From Halobacteroides halobius DSM 5150 (GTDB taxonomy: Bacteria > Bacillota > Halanaerobiia > Halobacteroidales > Halobacteroidaceae), in contig NC_019978.1 of NCBI RefSeq assembly GCF_000328625.1, positions 620,001 through 684,000 on the forward strand: a stretch of DNA of 64,000 nt, given 5' to 3'. The notes beneath the pieces were generated by a model. That model was not told the DNA's origin, made no database searches, and worked only from the letters and a program-made list of their open reading frames with translations. This document shows positions 45,026 through 64,000 of the stretch, in pieces. Position 1 is the stretch's first letter. Every line of letters begins with the position of its first letter. The position numbers and the translations under genes are program-made.

Positions 45026-45060
45026 AAGGAGGGAAGTCGTTTTTAATAACGACATGATTT
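45026..45060 (+). promoter_or_regulatory. dxr ribosome binding site with hairpin in the spacer
   Basis: The SD AAGGAGGG (45026-45033) lies 27 bases before the dxr ATG, too far for direct use. In between, GTCGTT (45036-45041) and AACGAC (45048-45053) form a perfect 6-bp stem with a 6-base loop. Folding it leaves 9 unpaired bases between SD and ATG, the ideal distance. Confidence 0.7.
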
Positions 45061-46218
45061 ATGAAACAGATATCTATTTTAGGTTCTACAGGCTCAATTG
45101 GAACGCAAACTTTAGAGGTAATAGAGAACTTAGATGAAGAAATTTCTGTAGTAGCTATAACTGCTAATAACAGTATAGATTTATTAGTTCAGCAGGCTAA
45201 AAAATTTAAAGTTGATTATGCAGTGATTATGAACGAAGAAAAAGTTAGTCAATTAGAAAGTAAGTTAACTGGTACTACAATTACTGTTTTATCTGGTTTA
45301 GAAGGTTTAACTAAAGTAGCTACTTTAGAGCAAGTTGATTTAGTAATTAATTCAGTAGTAGGTGCAATAGGTGTTAGACCTACTTTAGCAGCAATTAAAG
45401 CAGGAAAAGATATAGGTTTAGCTAATAAGGAAACATTAGTAACAGCAGGTTCTATTGTAACTAGAGAAGCTAAGAAAAATGGAGTAAAGTTGTTACCAAT
45501 TGATAGTGAACATAATGCTATTTTTCAGGTCTTAAATGGTGAAAAATCAACTAGTATAAAAAGGTTAATTTTAACTGCTTCTGGAGGTCCATTTAGAGAA
45601 GCTACTGCATCAGAATTAAAAGAAGTTACAGTAGAGGATGCTTTAGATCATCCGAATTGGGATATGGGTGGTAAAATTACTATTGATTCAGCAACTTTAA
45701 TGAACAAAGGATTAGAAGTCATAGAAGCCCATTGGTTATTTGATCTTAGTTTTGATAAAATAGATGTTGTAGTTCATCCACAAAGTATTGTTCATTCTTT
45801 AGTAGAGTTTAAAGATCATTCTACGATAGCTGAATTGGGATTACCTGATATGAAAGTACCAATTCAATATGTATTAACCTATCCTAATAGGAAAGAAAAT
45901 AATTTAGAGAGTTTAAATTTAGCTGAAGTCAGAAAATTAACTTTTGAAGAAGCAAAGACTGATTTATTTTCTTGTTTAGAATATGCTTATCAAGCAGGTA
46001 AGGTTGGAGGAACAATGCCTGCTGTTTTAAATGCTGCTAATGAAATAGCAGTGAGTAAATTTCTAAGTCATCAACTTAAGTTTAATCAAATACCAGAGTT
46101 AATTTCTAAAGTAATCTCCAATCATCAAGTAGTTTATAAGCCTACGTTAGATCAAATTCTACAAGCAGATACTTGGGCTAGGAGTGAAGCCCAGAAAGTG
46201 GGGGATCAGATTTGTTAA
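45061..46218 (+). CDS. dxr: 1-deoxy-D-xylulose 5-phosphate reductoisomerase
   Basis: 385 aa. The NADPH-binding start MKQISILGSTGSIGTQTLEV fixes the ATG. Further motifs are GLANKETLVTAGSIVT, LPIDSEHNAIFQVL, LTASGGPFRE, TIDSATLMNKGLEVIEAHWL and VVHPQSIVHSLVEFKD. It converts DXP to MEP in the non-mevalonate isoprenoid pathway, together with ispG in this window and supplying UppS. It overlaps rseP by 7 bases. Confidence 0.97.
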   Translation: MKQISILGSTGSIGTQTLEVIENLDEEISVVAITANNSIDLLVQQAKKFKVDYAVIMNEEKVSQLESKLTGTTITVLSGLEGLTKVATLEQVDLVINSVVGAIGVRPTLAAIKAGKDIGLANKETLVTAGSIVTREAKKNGVKLLPIDSEHNAIFQVLNGEKSTSIKRLILTASGGPFREATASELKEVTVEDALDHPNWDMGGKITIDSATLMNKGLEVIEAHWLFDLSFDKIDVVVHPQSIVHSLVEFKDHSTIAELGLPDMKVPIQYVLTYPNRKENNLESLNLAEVRKLTFEEAKTDLFSCLEYAYQAGKVGGTMPAVLNAANEIAVSKFLSHQLKFNQIPELISKVISNHQVVYKPTLDQILQADTWARSEAQKVGDQIC

Positions 46219-49386: not shown

Positions 49387-51090
49387 ATGCGAATGTCACA
49401 AATGTATCTACCAACACTAAAAGAAACACCTGCTGATGCTGAGGTTACAAGTCATAAATTAATGTTAAGAGCAGGAATGATAAGAAAGCTTGGTTCAGGG
49501 ATCTATACATATTTACCTTTAGGTTATAAAGCAATTAGTAATTTAGAAGAAATTATTAAAGAAGAGTTAAATAAAAAAGGAGCTCAAGAACTATTATTAC
49601 CAGCTTTACAACCAGCAAGTTTATGGGAAGAGTCAGGTAGATTAGAAAATTATGGGCCAGAATTAATGAGACTTGAAGATCGTCATGCAAGAGAATTTTG
49701 TTTAGGGCCAACCCACGAAGAAGTAATTACTGATCTAGTAAGAGATGAAGTCAGATCTTATAAAGAATTACCACTTAATTTATATCAAATTCAAACTAAA
49801 TATCGAGATGAAGTTAGACCTCGTTTTGGTGTATTAAGAGGTAGAGAGTTTATTATGAAGGATGCGTATAGTTTTGATGCTGATGAAAAAGGACTAAATG
49901 AAAGTTATCAGCAAATGTATGATGCATATTGTAATATCTTTTCACGGTGTGGTTTAGAGTATAGACCAGTTTTAGCTGATACAGGAACTATTGGTGGTGA
50001 TGATTCTCATGAGTTTATGGTTTTAGCAGATGCTGGAGAAGATATTGTAGTATATTGTGAAGAATGTGATTATGCAGCTAATTTAGAACTAGCTACCGCA
50101 GATTCTAAAGTAATAGCTCAAGACGAAGAAGCAAAGGAATTAAAAGTAGTAGATACTCCTGAAGTTTCTACAATTGAAGATTTGGTTACAGAATTAGATT
50201 TAGCAGCCCATAAGATGATTAAAGCAGTATTATATCAGGTTGATGAAGAGCCAGTTTTAGCGTTAGTTAGAGGTGATTATGAAATAAATGAAGTTAAATT
50301 GGGTAATATATTAGACGTAGTTAATCTTGAATTAGCTGCTGAGGAAGTATATCAAAAGTTAGATACTGTTAAAGGATTTACGGGACCTGTTAAGCTAGAG
50401 GAGATTAAAATTGTAGCTGATGAATTAGTGATGGAGATGAGTAATGCAGTCAGTGGAGCTAACAAGTTAGACCAGCATTATCTGAATGTAAATCCTGGTC
50501 GGGACTTTAAAGTAACAACAGTAGCAGATATTAGAGAGGTTAAAGTAGGAGAAGATTGTATCCAGTGCGGTAGCCAATTAAAACAAACCCGTGGGATTGA
50601 GGTAGGTCAGGTATTTAAACTAGGAACTAAATATAGTAAAGCTTTGGAGGCAACTTTCTTAGACCAAAATGGTAAACCGCAACCATTAGTAATGGGCTGT
50701 TATGGAATAGGAGTCTCTAGAACTATTGCTGCTGCAATTGAACAAAATCATGATGAATACGGTATTAAATGGCCTAAAGCACTAGCTCCATACAATGTAG
50801 AGTTATTAGTTTTAGGAAGTGGAGAAGTAATGGAACAAGCCGAGGAATTTTATCAGCAACTAAAAGAAGAGGGAATAGAAGTTTTATTAGATGATCGAGC
50901 TGAAAGAGCAGGAGTTAAATTTAATGATGCTGATTTAATAGGAGCTCCAATAAGAGTAACTATTGGAGCTCGTTCTTTAGCAGATGGCAAGGTAGAAGTT
51001 AAATTACGTCAGACAGGTGAAGAGTTTAAAGTGGAAGTAGAAGAGTTTTTAGCTAAAATTGAAAGTTTGCTTACTGATTCAATTTATTAG
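49387..51090 (+). CDS. proS: Prolyl-tRNA synthetase (bacterial type with editing domain)
   Basis: 567 aa from ATG 49387 (GGAGGT upstream). Class II motifs: MLRAGMIRKLGSGIYTYLPL; motif 2 QIQTKYRDEVRPRFGVLRGR and EFIMKDAYSFD; motif 3 PLVMGCYGIGVSRTIAAAIE. An insertion of about 180 residues between motifs 2 and 3 (about 220-400) is the YbaK-like domain that clears Ala-tRNA(Pro). C-terminal anticodon-binding domain. It stops 12 bases before the glycosyltransferase. Confidence 0.97.
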   Translation: MRMSQMYLPTLKETPADAEVTSHKLMLRAGMIRKLGSGIYTYLPLGYKAISNLEEIIKEELNKKGAQELLLPALQPASLWEESGRLENYGPELMRLEDRHAREFCLGPTHEEVITDLVRDEVRSYKELPLNLYQIQTKYRDEVRPRFGVLRGREFIMKDAYSFDADEKGLNESYQQMYDAYCNIFSRCGLEYRPVLADTGTIGGDDSHEFMVLADAGEDIVVYCEECDYAANLELATADSKVIAQDEEAKELKVVDTPEVSTIEDLVTELDLAAHKMIKAVLYQVDEEPVLALVRGDYEINEVKLGNILDVVNLELAAEEVYQKLDTVKGFTGPVKLEEIKIVADELVMEMSNAVSGANKLDQHYLNVNPGRDFKVTTVADIREVKVGEDCIQCGSQLKQTRGIEVGQVFKLGTKYSKALEATFLDQNGKPQPLVMGCYGIGVSRTIAAAIEQNHDEYGIKWPKALAPYNVELLVLGSGEVMEQAEEFYQQLKEEGIEVLLDDRAERAGVKFNDADLIGAPIRVTIGARSLADGKVEVKLRQTGEEFKVEVEEFLAKIESLLTDSIY

Positions 51091-51102
51091 GGGGTTGGTT
51101 AA

Positions 51103-51741
51103 ATGTCTGTAACCGCAGTAATTCCTGCCTATAATGAAGAAGAGACTATTGGTGAAGTGGTCAGTAAAGTTAAAGCTCATAAATTAGTAAATAATGTAAT
51201 TGTTATTAGTGATGGATCAGAAGACAATACTGCTGCTATAGCTAGAGATACGGGAGCTGAAGTAATAGAATTAGAAAGCAATTTAGGTAAAGGAGCTGCA
51301 ATTCAAACTGGAATTGATATTGCTAAAGGGGATATCATTTTATTTTTAGATGCAGATTTGTTAAGATTAACTCTAGAGCATATTGATCAACTTTTATTAC
51401 CAGTGATTAATCAAGAAGCAGAAATGACGGTAGGGGTTTTTACTGCTGGTAGATTTACTACAGACTTGGCCCAAAAGATTACTCCTTTCCTATCTGGACA
51501 AAGAGCAGTAAAAAGTAAATTATTAGATGATATCGCTAGTTTAGAGATGACACAATTTGGAGTAGAAATTGCTTTAACACAGTATGCTAAAGAAAATAAT
51601 ATTAAGATTAAAGAGGTAGAGTTACAAGACCTAACTCATGTGATGAAAGAAGAAAAATTAGGAGTATTCAAGGGACTAAGGGCAAGACTTAAAATGTATT
51701 GGGAAATTATTAAGAATCTACCTCGCAATAAAATTAAATAA
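51103..51741 (+). CDS. Family 2 glycosyltransferase
   Basis: 212 aa. GT-A fold with VTAVIPAYNEEETIGEVVSK at the N-terminus, VIVISDGSEDNT, NLGKGAAIQTGID and the DxD-like LFLDADL near 84. A later stretch GRFTTDLAQKITPFLSGQRA resembles the acceptor region of dolichol-phosphate-mannose and glucosyl-phosphoglycerate synthase-like GT2 proteins. Neither sugar donor nor acceptor can be fixed. No membrane helix. It lies between proS and the MgtC gene. Confidence 0.85.
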   Translation: MSVTAVIPAYNEEETIGEVVSKVKAHKLVNNVIVISDGSEDNTAAIARDTGAEVIELESNLGKGAAIQTGIDIAKGDIILFLDADLLRLTLEHIDQLLLPVINQEAEMTVGVFTAGRFTTDLAQKITPFLSGQRAVKSKLLDDIASLEMTQFGVEIALTQYAKENNIKIKEVELQDLTHVMKEEKLGVFKGLRARLKMYWEIIKNLPRNKIK

Positions 51742-51761
51742 AGGGAAAGGAGTGAGCAGCA

Positions 51762-52430
51762 ATAAGTACTCAACAGATAGTATTAAGGTTAGTATTAGCT
51801 TGTTTATTAGGAGGCTTAATTGGTTTAGAAAGAGAAAGAAATTCCAGACCGGCTGGTTTTAGAACTAATATTTTGGTATCAGTTGGAGCAACATTAATAA
51901 TGATTGTTTCAATTAAGATGCGCTTGATGTTTAATAATCCTCAGGTAGACCCGGGTCGAATTGCTGCTCAGGTTGTGAGTGGAGTAGGATTTTTAGGTGC
52001 AGGAACAATTATTAGGGAAGGATTTTCTGTTAAAGGACTTACTACTGCAGCAGGTTTATGGGCAGTAGCTGGAATTGGTCTTGCTTTAGGAGCAGGATTT
52101 CATGTAAGTGCAATTACGGCTACAGGATTAGTAATTATTACGTTAACTGTGTTAAATCAGGTAGAACAAAATTTATATAATATAAATCGTAAATACACAT
52201 TAAGAATTAAAGCATTTGATCAGCCAGGAGGCTTAGGAAAAATTGGTTCAGTATTATCGGAAAATGAAGTTATAATTAAAGATGTTAGTATGGAGCAATG
52301 TTATGATGAGCCTAATATTTATATTAATTTAAGAATTAAAAAGCCAAAAAATGTAGGAAGAAACGAACTACTTACTTCTTTGACGGAATTGCAAGGTGTA
52401 ATTGAAATTGAGATTGAAAAGGTAGATTAA
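51762..52430 (+). CDS. MgtC/SapB family membrane protein with apparent AUA start
   Basis: 222 aa if read from ATA 51762. The family N-terminus is complete: VLRLVLACLLGGLIGLERER then NSRPAGFRTNILVSVGATL, then VVSGVGFLGAGTIIREGFSV and GLTTAAGLWAVAGIGLALGA. A C-terminal ACT-like domain follows (about 145-222). No ATG, GTG or TTG lies in frame between the upstream stop and TTG 51873, which would delete helix 1 and the RER motif. AAAGGAG lies 9 bases before ATA. Alternatively a one-base deletion separates GTG 51752 from the frame. Role: unclear, linked to Mg stress in some bacteria. Confidence 0.8.
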   Translation: MSTQQIVLRLVLACLLGGLIGLERERNSRPAGFRTNILVSVGATLIMIVSIKMRLMFNNPQVDPGRIAAQVVSGVGFLGAGTIIREGFSVKGLTTAAGLWAVAGIGLALGAGFHVSAITATGLVIITLTVLNQVEQNLYNINRKYTLRIKAFDQPGGLGKIGSVLSENEVIIKDVSMEQCYDEPNIYINLRIKKPKNVGRNELLTSLTELQGVIEIEIEKVD

Positions 52431-52444
52431 AGGAGAGATATAGG

Positions 52445-55400
52445 ATGACAATGGTTAATATTGAACCTGACCAGAATAATCCTTTCCGAAACGAACTGAA
52501 GCAAAGGTTAGATATTGCTGATAAGTTAATAAATAAGATAAAATTTAAAAAACTTAAAGTAGATACCACGACAAATGAGTGTAGTTTGCAATTAAAAGTT
52601 CCTCAAAGTATAGAGATTAATTCTATACTTGAGGAATTAAGTGCTGATTTCTTTGTTAAGGGAGAGTTAAAATATCAAATTGATCATTACAATCCTGATT
52701 TATCTTTACAGACTATATTAAAAGATGATTGGGAAGAGATTATCAAAGAAATTAGACAGCAATCACCTCAAGCCAATGGATGGCTTTCGTTATCTAAATG
52801 GAATATAAAAGAAGGGATATTAGAGGTTGAGGTTGAGAATCAAACAGCTATTGAGGCATTAGAAAAGAATAAATGTGATCGAATTTTAAGAAAAATTTTA
52901 GATGGAGAATATAATAAACAGGTTAAAGTCAATTTTGTTGTAGGTGATTTTAAAAATGAGTCTAATCAGTTAGCTAATGAACAGCAAAAAGAAACTAAAG
53001 CTTATATGGATAGTTTAGTTAAGAATTCAGCTGGACAAGGGCCTGCTAGGAATCGAAACTCACAAAGTACTAATTCAGTAAAGGGCCAAACAGTATGGTT
53101 AGGTAAAAAAATTAATGGTGAAGTCCAGCCATTAGATGAAATTACAGGTGAGGTTAAAAATGTAGTAGTTAAGGGCCAAATCTTTTCTGCTGATATTAGG
53201 CATTTACAAAGTGGTAGTAAGTTGATTATGTTTGATATTACTGATCATACTAATTCAATTACTGTTAAATTATTTGAAAATAAGAATGATAATTTAGCTG
53301 ATAAAGTTGCTAAAGGAGAATGGTTATTAGTAGAGGGTAATGTTGAGTTTGATACTTATGACCAAGAGCTAATGTTAAAGCCACGTAATATTATGGTTAC
53401 TTCTAATTCTAGTAAGAAGGATGAAGCTGACCAAAAAAGAGCTGAATTACACTTACATACTAAGATGAGTAGTTTGGATTCAGTCTTAGATGTAGAAGCT
53501 GCAATAAAGCAAGCAGATGATTGGGGACATTCAGCGATTGCTATTACAGACCATGGTGTAGTACAGGCTTTCCCTGATGCTTATAATGCAGCTAAAGATA
53601 AAGATATTAAGGTGATTTATGGATTAGAAGCTTACTTAGTTGATGATGGAGAACCAATTATTTTAAATCCTGTTGACCAAGATATATCTAAAGAGACATA
53701 TATTGTCTTTGATTTAGAAACAACAGGCTTTAATCCACATCATAATGAAATTATAGAAATTGGAGCAGCTAAGGTTGAAGCAGGGACTATAACTGAAAGC
53801 TACCAAACATTTGTTAATCCTAGTCAGGATATTCCTGCTAAGATTACTGAATTAACAGGGATTAATGCAGAAATGGTAGCTGATGCTCCTTCGTTAAAAG
53901 AAGCTATAACTAAGTTTTTAGATTTTATAGGGGATGCTACTTTAGTAGCTCATAATCTATCTTTTGATTTAGGATTTATTGAGGATAAATTAAGGAAATT
54001 AGATAAGCCTAAGTTAACTAATCCTGCCCTTGATACTTTGAATTTATCTCGTGCTTTATTACCTGAGCTGAAGTCTTATAAATTAAATAAATTGGCTAAA
54101 AAGTTTAATAAAAATTTAGAAAACCATCATCGAGCTTATGATGATGCTAAAGTAACAGCTGAGATACTATTAGAATTAATAGATTTAGCTAAGAATAATA
54201 AGGTTAATAATTTAACTGAAATTAATCAATTAACCAGTAAGATTGATTATAAACGAATGCATCCTTATCACACTACTATTTTAGTTAAAAATCAACAAGG
54301 CCTTAGGAATTTATACCAATTAGTATCTGAGGCCCATGTCGAGAATTTCCATCGAGTACCACGGGTTTTAAAGAGTCAGTTATTAGAAAAAAGAGAGGGC
54401 TTGATTATTGGTTCAGCATGTGAAGCAGGACAATTATATAAAGCAATTTTGCATGGTAAATCCGATGATGAATTAATTGAGTTAGCTAAATTCTATGATT
54501 ATTTAGAAGTACAACCTTTAGGTAATAATAAATTTTTATTAGAAAAAGGAGAGGTTGAATCTTTTAAGGAACTAGAAGAAATAAATCGTAAAATTTATCA
54601 ATTAGGAAACCGTCTAGGTAAGCCAGTGATTGCTGCTGGGGATGTTCATTTTCTAGATGCTAAAGATAGTGTTTATCGTAGAGTTTTAAAAGAAGGTCAA
54701 GGTTTTGATGATGCAGCTGACCAACCACCTTTATATCTAAGAACAACTGAGGAAATGTTAGCAGAATTTGATTATTTTTCTGAGGATGAAGCTTATGAAT
54801 TAGTAATTGAGAATCCGAAAGATATTTGTGAGGAAATAGAAGAAGTTGAGCCTATCCCTGATAAATTATTTACTCCAACTATTGAAGGAGCTGAAGATGA
54901 GATTAGAGAGATGGCTTATAATAAAGCTAAGAAATGGTATGGAAATCCTTTACCTGATTTAGTAGTAGATAGATTGGAGAATGAACTAGAATCAATAATC
55001 GGGAATGGTTATGCGGTAATCTATTTAATTTCTCATAAGTTAGTTAAAAAGTCGTTAAGTGATGGTTATTTAGTAGGTTCTCGAGGGTCAGTTGGGTCTT
55101 CTTTTGCTGCAACGATGACCGATATTACTGAAGTTAACCCTTTACCTCCTCATTATAGGTGTCCTGAATGTAAGGATTCTACATTCTTTACTGATGGTTC
55201 AGTAGGATTAGGTGTTGACTTGCCAGATAAAGACTGTGGTCAATGTGGTACAGAATTAATTAAAGATGGCTATGATATTCCATTTGAAGTCTTTTTAGGT
55301 TTTGAAGGAGATAAAGTTCCTGATATTGATCTTAATTTCTCTGGTGAATATCAATCTCAAGTTCATAGGTATACAGAAAAACTTTTTGGGGAAGAGTATG

Positions 55401-56743
55401 TGTATAGAGCGGGAACTATATCTACAATTGCTGACAGAACAGCATATGGTTTTGTGAAAGGACATATGGAGGATAATAATTTATCCTTACGTCAAGCTGA
55501 AATTAACCGGTTATCTTCAGGTTGTACAGGAGTAAAAAGAACAACTGGACAACACCCAGGAGGACAAATAGTTGTTCCTCAAGATAAGGAGATTTATGAT
55601 TTTACTCCAATTCAACGTCCAGCTAATGATATGGATAGTGATACATTAACAACCCACTTTGATTTTCATTCGATTCATGATAATTTACTAAAGTTAGATG
55701 TGCTAGGTCATGATGATCCAACTAGTATTCGAATGTTACAGGATCTTACAGGGGTCGACCCCCAGGAGATTCCATTAGATGATGAGGAGACGATGGGAAT
55801 TTTCTCCAGCATAGAGCCTTTAGGGGTAACTGAGGATCAAGTAGGAGTTAAGTTAGGAACTTTAGGAATTCCAGAATTCGGGACTCAATTTGTGCGCGGG
55901 ATGTTACGTGAAACAAGACCAACAACTTTTGCTGAGTTAGTGCGGATTAGTGGTTTATCTCATGGAGCAGATGTTTGGTTAAATAATGCTCAAGATTTAA
56001 TTAGATCGGGCACGGCTAAATTAGCAGAAGTTATATCAGTTCGTGATGATATTATGAATTATTTATTGCAAAAGGGAGTTGAGCCATCACAAGCTTTCTG
56101 GATTATGGAACATGTTAGAAAGGGTAAGGGATTGACAGCAGAGGAAGAGCAGGCAATGCGAGAGAACAATGTACCTAATTGGTATATTGAATCATGTAAA
56201 AAAATTAATTATATGTTCCCTAAAGCTCACGCTGCTGCTTATGTAATGATGGCCTTTCGAATTGCTTATTTTAAGGTTCATCATCCTCAAGCTTTTTATA
56301 ATACCTTTTTTACCATTAAAGCTAATGATTTTGATGCGCAAATTGTTCTACAAGGGGAAGAACATATTAAAAAGCAGATGCAAGAGATTAAAAGTAAAGG
56401 AAATGATGCTACGGCCAAAGATAAAAATACAAGAACAGTATTAGAAATTGTGATTGAAGCTTTAGCTCGGGGAATTGAGTTTGTGCCTGTAGATATTTAT
56501 GAATCCAAAGCTTATGAATTTAAGATCACAGATGATGGTCTATTACCTCCTCTAATTAGTTTAGATGGTTTAGGTAGAAGTGCAGCTAAAAGTATAGTGC
56601 AAGTACGTAAAGAGGGCGAGTTTACTTCAATAGAGAATTTAAAGAATCGGTCTGGAGCAAGTAAAACAGTAATCGAAGCTCTAAGGTTGCATGGTTCTTT
56701 AGAAGGATTACCGGAGACTAATCAACTCTCTTTATTTCAATAA
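52445..56743 (+). CDS. polC: DNA polymerase III alpha subunit, Gram-positive PolC type
   Basis: 1432 aa, typical length. In order: N-terminal domains; OB fold (near 235-320, LIMFDITDHTNSITVKLF); PHP domain near 332 (RAELHLHTKMSSLDSV, ITDHGVV); inserted DEDDh exonuclease near 418 (YIVFDLETTGFNPHHNEIIE, VAHNLSFDLGF, HHRAYDDAKVT); polymerase core near 877 (GSRGSVGSSFAATMTDITEV), zinc Cys cluster near 905 (CPECK..CGQCG), PDIDLNFSGEYQSQVHRY near 958; and a C-terminal HhH region. It is the main replicative polymerase of low-GC Gram-positives. Confidence 0.98.
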   Translation: MTMVNIEPDQNNPFRNELKQRLDIADKLINKIKFKKLKVDTTTNECSLQLKVPQSIEINSILEELSADFFVKGELKYQIDHYNPDLSLQTILKDDWEEIIKEIRQQSPQANGWLSLSKWNIKEGILEVEVENQTAIEALEKNKCDRILRKILDGEYNKQVKVNFVVGDFKNESNQLANEQQKETKAYMDSLVKNSAGQGPARNRNSQSTNSVKGQTVWLGKKINGEVQPLDEITGEVKNVVVKGQIFSADIRHLQSGSKLIMFDITDHTNSITVKLFENKNDNLADKVAKGEWLLVEGNVEFDTYDQELMLKPRNIMVTSNSSKKDEADQKRAELHLHTKMSSLDSVLDVEAAIKQADDWGHSAIAITDHGVVQAFPDAYNAAKDKDIKVIYGLEAYLVDDGEPIILNPVDQDISKETYIVFDLETTGFNPHHNEIIEIGAAKVEAGTITESYQTFVNPSQDIPAKITELTGINAEMVADAPSLKEAITKFLDFIGDATLVAHNLSFDLGFIEDKLRKLDKPKLTNPALDTLNLSRALLPELKSYKLNKLAKKFNKNLENHHRAYDDAKVTAEILLELIDLAKNNKVNNLTEINQLTSKIDYKRMHPYHTTILVKNQQGLRNLYQLVSEAHVENFHRVPRVLKSQLLEKREGLIIGSACEAGQLYKAILHGKSDDELIELAKFYDYLEVQPLGNNKFLLEKGEVESFKELEEINRKIYQLGNRLGKPVIAAGDVHFLDAKDSVYRRVLKEGQGFDDAADQPPLYLRTTEEMLAEFDYFSEDEAYELVIENPKDICEEIEEVEPIPDKLFTPTIEGAEDEIREMAYNKAKKWYGNPLPDLVVDRLENELESIIGNGYAVIYLISHKLVKKSLSDGYLVGSRGSVGSSFAATMTDITEVNPLPPHYRCPECKDSTFFTDGSVGLGVDLPDKDCGQCGTELIKDGYDIPFEVFLGFEGDKVPDIDLNFSGEYQSQVHRYTEKLFGEEYVYRAGTISTIADRTAYGFVKGHMEDNNLSLRQAEINRLSSGCTGVKRTTGQHPGGQIVVPQDKEIYDFTPIQRPANDMDSDTLTTHFDFHSIHDNLLKLDVLGHDDPTSIRMLQDLTGVDPQEIPLDDEETMGIFSSIEPLGVTEDQVGVKLGTLGIPEFGTQFVRGMLRETRPTTFAELVRISGLSHGADVWLNNAQDLIRSGTAKLAEVISVRDDIMNYLLQKGVEPSQAFWIMEHVRKGKGLTAEEEQAMRENNVPNWYIESCKKINYMFPKAHAAAYVMMAFRIAYFKVHHPQAFYNTFFTIKANDFDAQIVLQGEEHIKKQMQEIKSKGNDATAKDKNTRTVLEIVIEALARGIEFVPVDIYESKAYEFKITDDGLLPPLISLDGLGRSAAKSIVQVRKEGEFTSIENLKNRSGASKTVIEALRLHGSLEGLPETNQLSLFQ

Positions 56744-60454: not shown

Positions 60455-60808
60455 ATGAGTCACCATCGTCAACAGCGAGTAGCATCTTTAATAAAAAAGT
60501 TAGTTAGTGAATTATTACAAAAAGAAATTAAAGATCCTCGAATTGGTTTTGTATCAGTTACTGATGTTGAAGTTTCTGGTGACTTACGCCATGCTAAAGT
60601 ATTTGTTAGTATTTTAGATGGTGATAAGGAAGAAACAATGGAAGCTTTACAATCTGCTGAAGGGTTTGTACGAACTGAAATAGGTAATGAAATTAGATTG
60701 CGACATACTCCTGAGGTTATTTTTAGATATGATGATTCAATTGAAAAGGGAGCTAGAATCTTTGAGATATTAGAAGATATCAATCAGGATGAAACAGATG
60801 AAGAATGA
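60455..60808 (+). CDS. rbfA: Ribosome-binding factor A
   Basis: 117 aa from ATG 60455 (MSHHRQQRVASLIKKLVSEL), with AGGAG upstream. KH-like fold with KEIKDPRIGFVSVTDVEVSG, DLRHAKVFVSIL and RLRHTPEVIFRYDDSIEKGA. It is needed for 16S rRNA 5'-end processing and cold adaptation. It overlaps the nrnA start by 11 bases. ylxP, usually between infB and rbfA, is absent. Confidence 0.96.
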   Translation: MSHHRQQRVASLIKKLVSELLQKEIKDPRIGFVSVTDVEVSGDLRHAKVFVSILDGDKEETMEALQSAEGFVRTEIGNEIRLRHTPEVIFRYDDSIEKGARIFEILEDINQDETDEE

Positions 60809-61784
60809 TACAATAGCTGAGATTAAGGAACTTATATTAGACTATGATAAATTTTTAGTGACTGGTCATATTGGCCCTGATGGAGATAGTATAGGTTCAA
60901 TTTTAGCTTTAAAATTAGCTTTAGAGCAGTTAGGAAAAGTAGTTGAAGTAGTAATAGCTGATGAACTTCCTGACTGTTTCTCCTTTTTATCTTCAAGTAC
61001 CTCTATTAAAGAGTATGATACTGAATTAGAAGTAGATTTTGATCTTGTTTTTGTACTCGATTGTGGTACTTGGGATAGGATTGCAGAAGTAGAAGAATTA
61101 GTTGATGAGCAAATAATAGTTAATCTTGACCATCATAGTGATAATACTTATTTTGGGGATTATAATTTTGTTAAAGAAGTTGCAGCAACGGCAGAATTAA
61201 TTTATCACCTAATAGAAGTAACTCCTCAGTTAGATTTAAATCAAGATATAGCTACTGCTATAATAACAGCTTTAATAACTGATACTGGATCATTTCGTTA
61301 TTCTAATACAACTAGTAGGACACATCAAATTGCAGCTCAATTATTAGAGTATGATGTTGATACTGCATATATTTCTAGACAAATATTTGGGACTAATTCA
61401 TATGAAAACTTAAAGCTAAGAGGTCAACTATTACGCAATTTACAGGTTGATAAATCAGGTAAAATCGCTTGGATGAAAATTAGCCAAGAGCTATTAGATG
61501 ATGTTGGAACTACTTTAGATGATACAGCTGGAATAGTTAATTATCCTAGAAGTCTAGAGGGAGCCGAGGTAGGTTTATTATTTAAAGAACAGGCCTCCCA
61601 AGAAATTAAGGTTAGTTTACGTTCTAATTCTTATCTGCCAGTTAATGAAGTTGCTCATAAGTTTGGTGGAGGAGGGCATGCTAGGGCTGCCGGCTGTTTA
61701 ATAGAAGATACTTTAGAGCAAGCTGAAGAAAAAATAATTACAGCACTTGCTAAAGCTTTAGAGAAATATTCAGCTACTGTTTAA
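60798..61784 (+). CDS. nrnA: DHH/DHHA1 oligoribonuclease and pAp phosphatase NrnA
   Basis: 328 aa from ATG 60798 (SD AGGA about 8 bases upstream; ATG 60789 is too close to it). Metal motifs: HIGPDGDSIGS (24-34), FVLDCGTW, NLDHHSDN near 108-115, ITALITDTGSFRYSNTT. The C-terminal DHHA1 domain has GGGGHARAAGC. It degrades short RNAs, including pGpG and other nanoRNAs, and converts pAp to AMP. In many Firmicutes truB comes next; here ribF follows directly. Confidence 0.95.
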   Translation: MKNDTIAEIKELILDYDKFLVTGHIGPDGDSIGSILALKLALEQLGKVVEVVIADELPDCFSFLSSSTSIKEYDTELEVDFDLVFVLDCGTWDRIAEVEELVDEQIIVNLDHHSDNTYFGDYNFVKEVAATAELIYHLIEVTPQLDLNQDIATAIITALITDTGSFRYSNTTSRTHQIAAQLLEYDVDTAYISRQIFGTNSYENLKLRGQLLRNLQVDKSGKIAWMKISQELLDDVGTTLDDTAGIVNYPRSLEGAEVGLLFKEQASQEIKVSLRSNSYLPVNEVAHKFGGGGHARAAGCLIEDTLEQAEEKIITALAKALEKYSATV

Positions 61785-63234: not shown

Positions 63235-64000
63235 ATGGCACAAAAATGGTCAATGGAGCTTGGCGGTTCCAATTTAACAATTGAAACAGGAGAATTGGCT
63301 CAACAAGCTAATGGGTCAGTTTTAGTACGTTATGGTGATACCGTAGTATTAGTTACGGCAACTATGTCTGATCCAAGACCTGGAATTAATTATTTTCCTT
63401 TAATGGTTAACTATGAAGAAAGATTATATGCTGTAGGAAAGATTCCAGGAGGTTTTATTAAACGAGAGGGTAGACCGAGTGATGCGGCAACATTAACTGC
63501 AAGATTGATTGATCGTCCGTTACGTCCTTTATTTCCAGAAGGATTTAGACATGATGTTCAGGTAGTAGCTACTGTTTTATCAGTTGATTCAGATAATGCT
63601 CCAGATATTGCAGCTATGATTGGAGCTTCTGCTGCGTTAGCAATCTCTGATATTCCATTTGAAGCACCAATTGGTGGGGTTAGAGTAGGTTTGGTTGATG
63701 GAGAATATATGATTAATCCTACTATAGCACAAATGAAAGAAACTAAGATTGATTTAACGGTTGCAGGAACTGAAGAGGCAGTTATGATGGTAGAAGCTGG
63801 TGCTAATGAAGCAACAGAAGAGGAAGTAATTGAAGCTATTGAATTTGGGCATCAAACAATCAAGGAAATTGTTAAATTAGAAAAAGAAATGGTAGCTGAA
63901 ATCGGAAAAGAAAAAGCTGATGTTGAATTAGAGATTATAGATCGACCAGAAATTGAAGAAGAAGTCAAAGACTATGTTGGAGATGATTTAAAAGAAGCTT
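63235..64000 (+). CDS. pnp: Polyribonucleotide nucleotidyltransferase (PNPase), N-terminal part
   Basis: The reading frame is open to the end of the window (255 codons), so the gene is truncated by the window edge. ATG 63235 with AAGGGGAT upstream. The first RNase PH-like domain is clear: [80 protein letters not shown]. The alpha-helical linker begins at the edge. It degrades RNA 3' to 5' with phosphate. S1 and KH domains lie beyond the window. Confidence 0.97.

Follow-up and report, generated by a model that had tools for sequence, protein, structure and literature searches.

A putative AUA start codon for mgtC in Halobacteroides halobius and candidate near-cognate starts at mgtC in related genomes

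The mgtC locus and its start site

The window analysed here is a stretch of 64,000 nucleotides from the genome of Halobacteroides halobius, which consists of one contig of 2,649,255 bases with a single detected copy of mgtC. The gene lies between a glycosyltransferase gene and a gene which we take to be polC, the latter name being assigned from the sequence and not by a family search. The features of the locus are as follows.

51103..51741, plus strand: family 2 glycosyltransferase gene upstream of mgtC, its stop lying 20 nt before the ATA
51746..51752, plus strand: AAAGGAG, core of the Shine-Dalgarno (SD) sequence; the predicted pairing spans about 51743-51755
51752..51754, plus strand: GTG, out of frame and overlapping the SD; the start in the case of a frameshift
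51756..52430, plus strand: MgtC-family open frame from stop to stop (MgtC and ACT-like domain), stop codon included
51762..51764, plus strand: ATA, proposed start codon of mgtC, with which the starts of relatives align; SD pairing -15.2 kcal/mol
51873..51875, plus strand: TTG, first canonical codon in frame, within the conserved core
52445..56743, plus strand: downstream gene, presumably polC, with homologues 3' of mgtC in all 13 genomes of the order

The protein encoded by mgtC scores 142.2 bits against PF02308, above the gathering score of 31.4, and carries an ACT-like C-terminal domain. It falls below the cut-offs of the NCBIfam equivalogs PRK09977 (152.4 against 214 bits) and PRK15385 (109.9 against 255 bits), and a sequence search of solved structures with MgtC gave none at E 0.001. 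The mgtC frame is preceded by TGA (51753-55) and continues with the codons GCA GCA ATA AGT ACT CAA CAG ATA. It was claimed in the original prediction that no ATG, GTG or TTG stands in frame before the first helix and the RER motif of MgtC. This was confirmed, the first such codon being TTG 51873, which is itself past both elements.

The SD AAAGGAG, described earlier as lying 9 bases before ATA 51762, was also found as stated, and its predicted pairing is strong. Pairing was calculated as the duplex energy with the 16S tail GGATCACCTCCTTTCT, which occurs 5 times in the genome, and amounts to -15.2 kcal/mol at ATA 51762, -5.9 at GTG 51752 and -2.7 at TTG 51873. Along the plus strand of the window, 47 of 63,967 positions reach the value of -15.2. 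ATA 51762 is the only near-cognate codon adjoining the SD, and a second ATA five codons downstream has no SD pairing (0.1). It should be noted here that a strong SD would persist beside a freshly mutated ATG too. A shorter protein starting from TTG 51873 is highly improbable. This TTG is the first canonical codon in the frame, but its SD pairing is just -2.7, on which ground it was rejected, and about 37 residues that relatives keep would be lost, including the first helix and the RER motif.

Long open reading frames of the window (at least 80 codons, overlaps limited; n = 68) were scanned, and mgtC was the sole convincing gene to lack a canonical start among its codons 1 to 39. The minus-strand frame 63558-63851 also has none there and looks spurious. 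Weak SD pairing alone is not rare in the window, since some genes starting with ATG pair weakly; the first ATG of the frames 45058-46218 and 60774-61784 is almost without SD pairing, and the starts of these two are uncertain.

Start sites of mgtC within the order

The order is represented by 13 genomes, each with an mgtC match: the window genome and seven others in its family (with Orenia, Halonatronum and Natroniella among them), and five in a sister family that includes Frackibacter and Fuchsiella. The neighbours of mgtC are largely kept in the fetched loci, with polC downstream in all 13, the glycosyltransferase gene upstream in 11 and proS in 11. At 67 columns that are invariant in the other 12 genomes MgtC of the window departs at 2, and those genomes depart at 0 to 10. 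With a protein that is intact and conserved to about the same degree as in relatives, mgtC is unlikely to be an old pseudogene, and this candidate was set aside.

In an ungapped extension, ATA 51762 was found to match a canonical start codon in all seven other family genomes (GTG, GTG, TTG, ATG, ATG, TTG and TTG; SD pairing -10.5 to -16.2), so the earlier statement that the ATA lies at the usual start of the family holds. It had also been envisaged that relatives could have ATG at this site; the aligned codon is canonical in every one of them, but it is ATG in two only and GTG or TTG in the rest. Within the family the ATA was seen in one genome, the genus itself being represented by that genome. 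These facts agree with another explanation, in which a point mutation recently turned a canonical start into ATA in this strain, and expression of MgtC was lost or much reduced by accident, not by selection. ATA is one base away from ATG, and single ATG-to-ATA changes that lower expression arise under selection in Listeria (PMC13068326). The intact protein, conserved like its relatives, and the candidate near-cognate starts at mgtC in other lineages speak against such an accident, although a very young mutation would still be compatible with both. We regard it as unlikely.

In another alternative, the sequence near 51758 contains an error of one base or a true indel, with GTG 51752 as the start codon, or as what would be the start in a young pseudogene. 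The earlier claim that this GTG could be used if one base were deleted stood in part: the GTG exists and its frame is open across the junction (51680-51862). However, its SD pairing is just -5.9 against -15.2 at the ATA, it overlaps the strong SD, and the ATA aligns with the starts of relatives without a gap. Moreover, in three sister-family loci (L009-L011) GGAGTG serves as the SD itself, its GTG being almost without SD pairing (1.7, -1.3 and -1.3), and in a fourth (L012) a GTG near the SD meets a TAA two codons later. On these points the frameshift was rejected as the main reading, and it appears even less probable than a point mutation. Because just one genome of the genus is available to compare, a sequence error or a recent loss keeps a small share of the probability.

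In the sister family an ATT is present one codon upstream (-1) of the ATA-aligned position in all five genomes; counted by hand, it follows the SD core by 8 nt (L009-L011) or 10 nt (L012, L013). Three of the five have no canonical alternative with fair SD pairing. In L012 (Frackibacter) an in-frame TAA immediately precedes the ATT, which pairs at -13.3, and no canonical codon follows until a TTG eight codons downstream, with a pairing of -2.7. Its mgtC therefore likely starts at ATT. The sole canonical option in L011 is the GTG inside the SD (-1.3), and those in L013 are a GTG in the SD (0.8) and an ATG (-1.1). L009 and L010 are ambiguous, as a TTG just 5' of the ATT pairs at -7.4 and -7.7, the ATT itself at -10.0 and -9.7, and the TTG may be the start. 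Conservation of the ATT was considered as proof of a start and discarded as uninformative, because ATT is the favoured isoleucine codon: among 15 all-isoleucine columns of the sister family, 6 have ATT in all five genomes, the start-site column being one of these.

A stem-loop was observed just 5' of the mgtC SD in 11 of the 12 relatives in the order (L002-L005 and L007-L013). Folding energies of the 81-nt upstream segments are -18.4 to -31.6 kcal/mol in those 11, -3.9 in the window and -6.4 in L006. The stem-loop is absent from the latter two, the distance from the upstream stop to the ATA being 20 nt in the window genome. Seven of its 13 pairs are changed on both sides, a number equalled by 1 of 500 shuffles and not approached by slid versions (at most 2). 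The count of pair types is unremarkable against the shuffles (195 of 500), and covariation contributes a small term (-0.59) to the consensus fold. An Rfam search of the 13 loci returned no family at the gathering score, and a pattern search matched once, in one genome, because the pattern was too strict. Being an inverted repeat, the stem-loop might equally be an RNA element or a site in the DNA. To link its loss in the window genome with the AUA start would be speculation. In window positions 51000-52600 and in L011, a scan found no terminator, and the number of promoter-like sites was at or below chance.

Survey of homologues and control genes

Homologues of mgtC were surveyed for a canonical in-frame start near the homologous position with an SD pairing of -7 kcal/mol or lower, the threshold being our own choice. 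In the first genome set a match was present in 53 of 61 genomes, 39 of which contributed the 40 places examined. The wider set gave matches in 169 of 299 genomes, of which 22 new loci and 80 stretches were examined, the weaker rows being left out. One locus cut by a contig end (G083) and one with an internal stop (G171) were omitted, and 16 further loci were viewed and kept out of the counts because several duplicate others. It was found that 135 of 142 homologues pass the rule and 7 fail, it being understood that the 142 are not independent and that assembly errors would raise flags too. The 135 with a supported canonical start have a median SD pairing of -11.4, and 20 of them reach -15.2.

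The failing homologues are the window gene, L011, L012, L013, L026, L064 and L155. L026 (genome G043, from another family) has an ATA at -1 with a pairing of -15.2, or an ATT at -2 with -14.6, and back to its upstream stop there is no canonical codon except a GTG in the SD. L155 (genome G117, also of another family) is without a supported canonical start, and its ATA candidate pairs at -8.9. Genome G019 holds two copies of mgtC about 5 kb apart, L064 and L065, and L064 has GTA where L065 has its ATG. Since it also has no well-placed near-cognate codon (best pairing -4.8), the L064 copy may be decaying.

Three control genes from the same 13 genomes of the order, ispG, the glycosyltransferase gene and proS, gave no flag in 39 rows; their scan reached two codons further downstream than that of mgtC, and the 13 glycosyltransferase rows include 2 paralogues. 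The gene infC (L047-L059, that of the window genome being L051) was flagged in all 13 genomes, with ATT at the same position and a pairing of -13.0 to -14.2. In two of them an ATA directly 5' of the ATT scores equally. Thus, the rule does find a gene that is known elsewhere for near-cognate starts, and the infC sequences suggest that organisms of this order initiate at AUU.

Proposed low-level translation from AUA and comparison with known systems

The original prediction left the choice between an AUA start and a sequence error or young pseudogene. The first of these is now favoured by the strength of the SD, the alignment with the starts of relatives, the intact gene and the candidate near-cognate starts at mgtC of relatives, and the frameshift option proved weak. 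Like genes with AUA or AUU starts, mgtC of the window has no canonical start before its core and has a strong SD at the proper spacing (9 nt). Judging from the sequence, we consider it likely, with a probability of about 0.75, that AUA 51762 is the codon at which translation of mgtC begins, presumably giving a low level of MgtC.

It could be that the extended duplex between the SD and the anti-SD positions the ribosome at the AUA, which the initiator tRNA would accept inefficiently, resulting in a low output of MgtC. By analogy with reporters in S. aureus, the level could be about a tenth of that from AUG. Initiation may be aided by ribosomes terminating on the glycosyltransferase gene 20 nt upstream, and the output could possibly vary with the level of IF3 or the growth state. 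The rare AUA proposed here, along with the equally rare AUU that some relatives seem to use, suggests that MgtC production is held low at translation. A broader proposal is more tentative, and we would hold it with less than even confidence: that in this bacterial class mgtC has repeatedly gained an AUA or AUU start with a strong SD, mostly (in this order) with a conserved stem-loop upstream, keeping MgtC low and perhaps coupling it to IF3 or growth state. A near-cognate start at mgtC appears to have arisen in several lineages; hence dosing a membrane protein through a weak start codon may be a device that recurs.

If the AUA start is true, mgtC would join the few bacterial genes on record that begin at near-cognate codons. 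Annotation restricted to ATG, GTG and TTG would either shorten MgtC by some 37 residues or set its start at the wrong place; in Borrelia a missed AUU start can truncate the annotation of pncA (PMC13398362). In a broad literature search, mgtC was not mentioned among the matches listed. The gene shares MgtC and the ACT-like C-terminal domain with other MgtC/SapB proteins (PF02308), but its start codon is unusual.

E. coli infC starts at AUU and is autoregulated. The likeness to mgtC lies in a near-cognate start after a strong SD, seen as ATT in infC of all 13 genomes of the order. However, infC encodes IF3 and can regulate itself, whereas MgtC could at most respond to IF3. E. coli pcnB reportedly starts at AUU, an inefficient start codon that is said to hold the gene low. 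Low dosing by a poor start codon would be common to pcnB and, as proposed here, mgtC, although the gene and the codon differ.

In Listeria, reporters of rsbW rank ATG > ATA > ATT, and non-canonical starts are fixed in six core genes (PMC13068326). There, the ATA in rsbW gives reduced yet real translation, as is proposed for mgtC; but the rsbW ATA and ATT arose as selected mutants, whereas the ATA at 51762 was seen in one genome of the genus. In S. aureus, PMC13009471 describes an AUA start for infC and conserved AUA and AUU starts with extended SDs, which in poor medium yield about 10% of the output from AUG, ccpN rising to as much as 30% in rich medium. The AUA start of ccpN in S. aureus and B. 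subtilis was demonstrated by Ribo-Ret and reporters and is kept in both species (PMC13009471), whereas that of mgtC, a different gene, is predicted from the sequence and occurs in one genome of the family. By analogy with S. aureus ccpN, where an extended SD guides an AUA start and expression is low and tunable (PMC13009471), the best reading is that the AUA start would likewise keep MgtC low.
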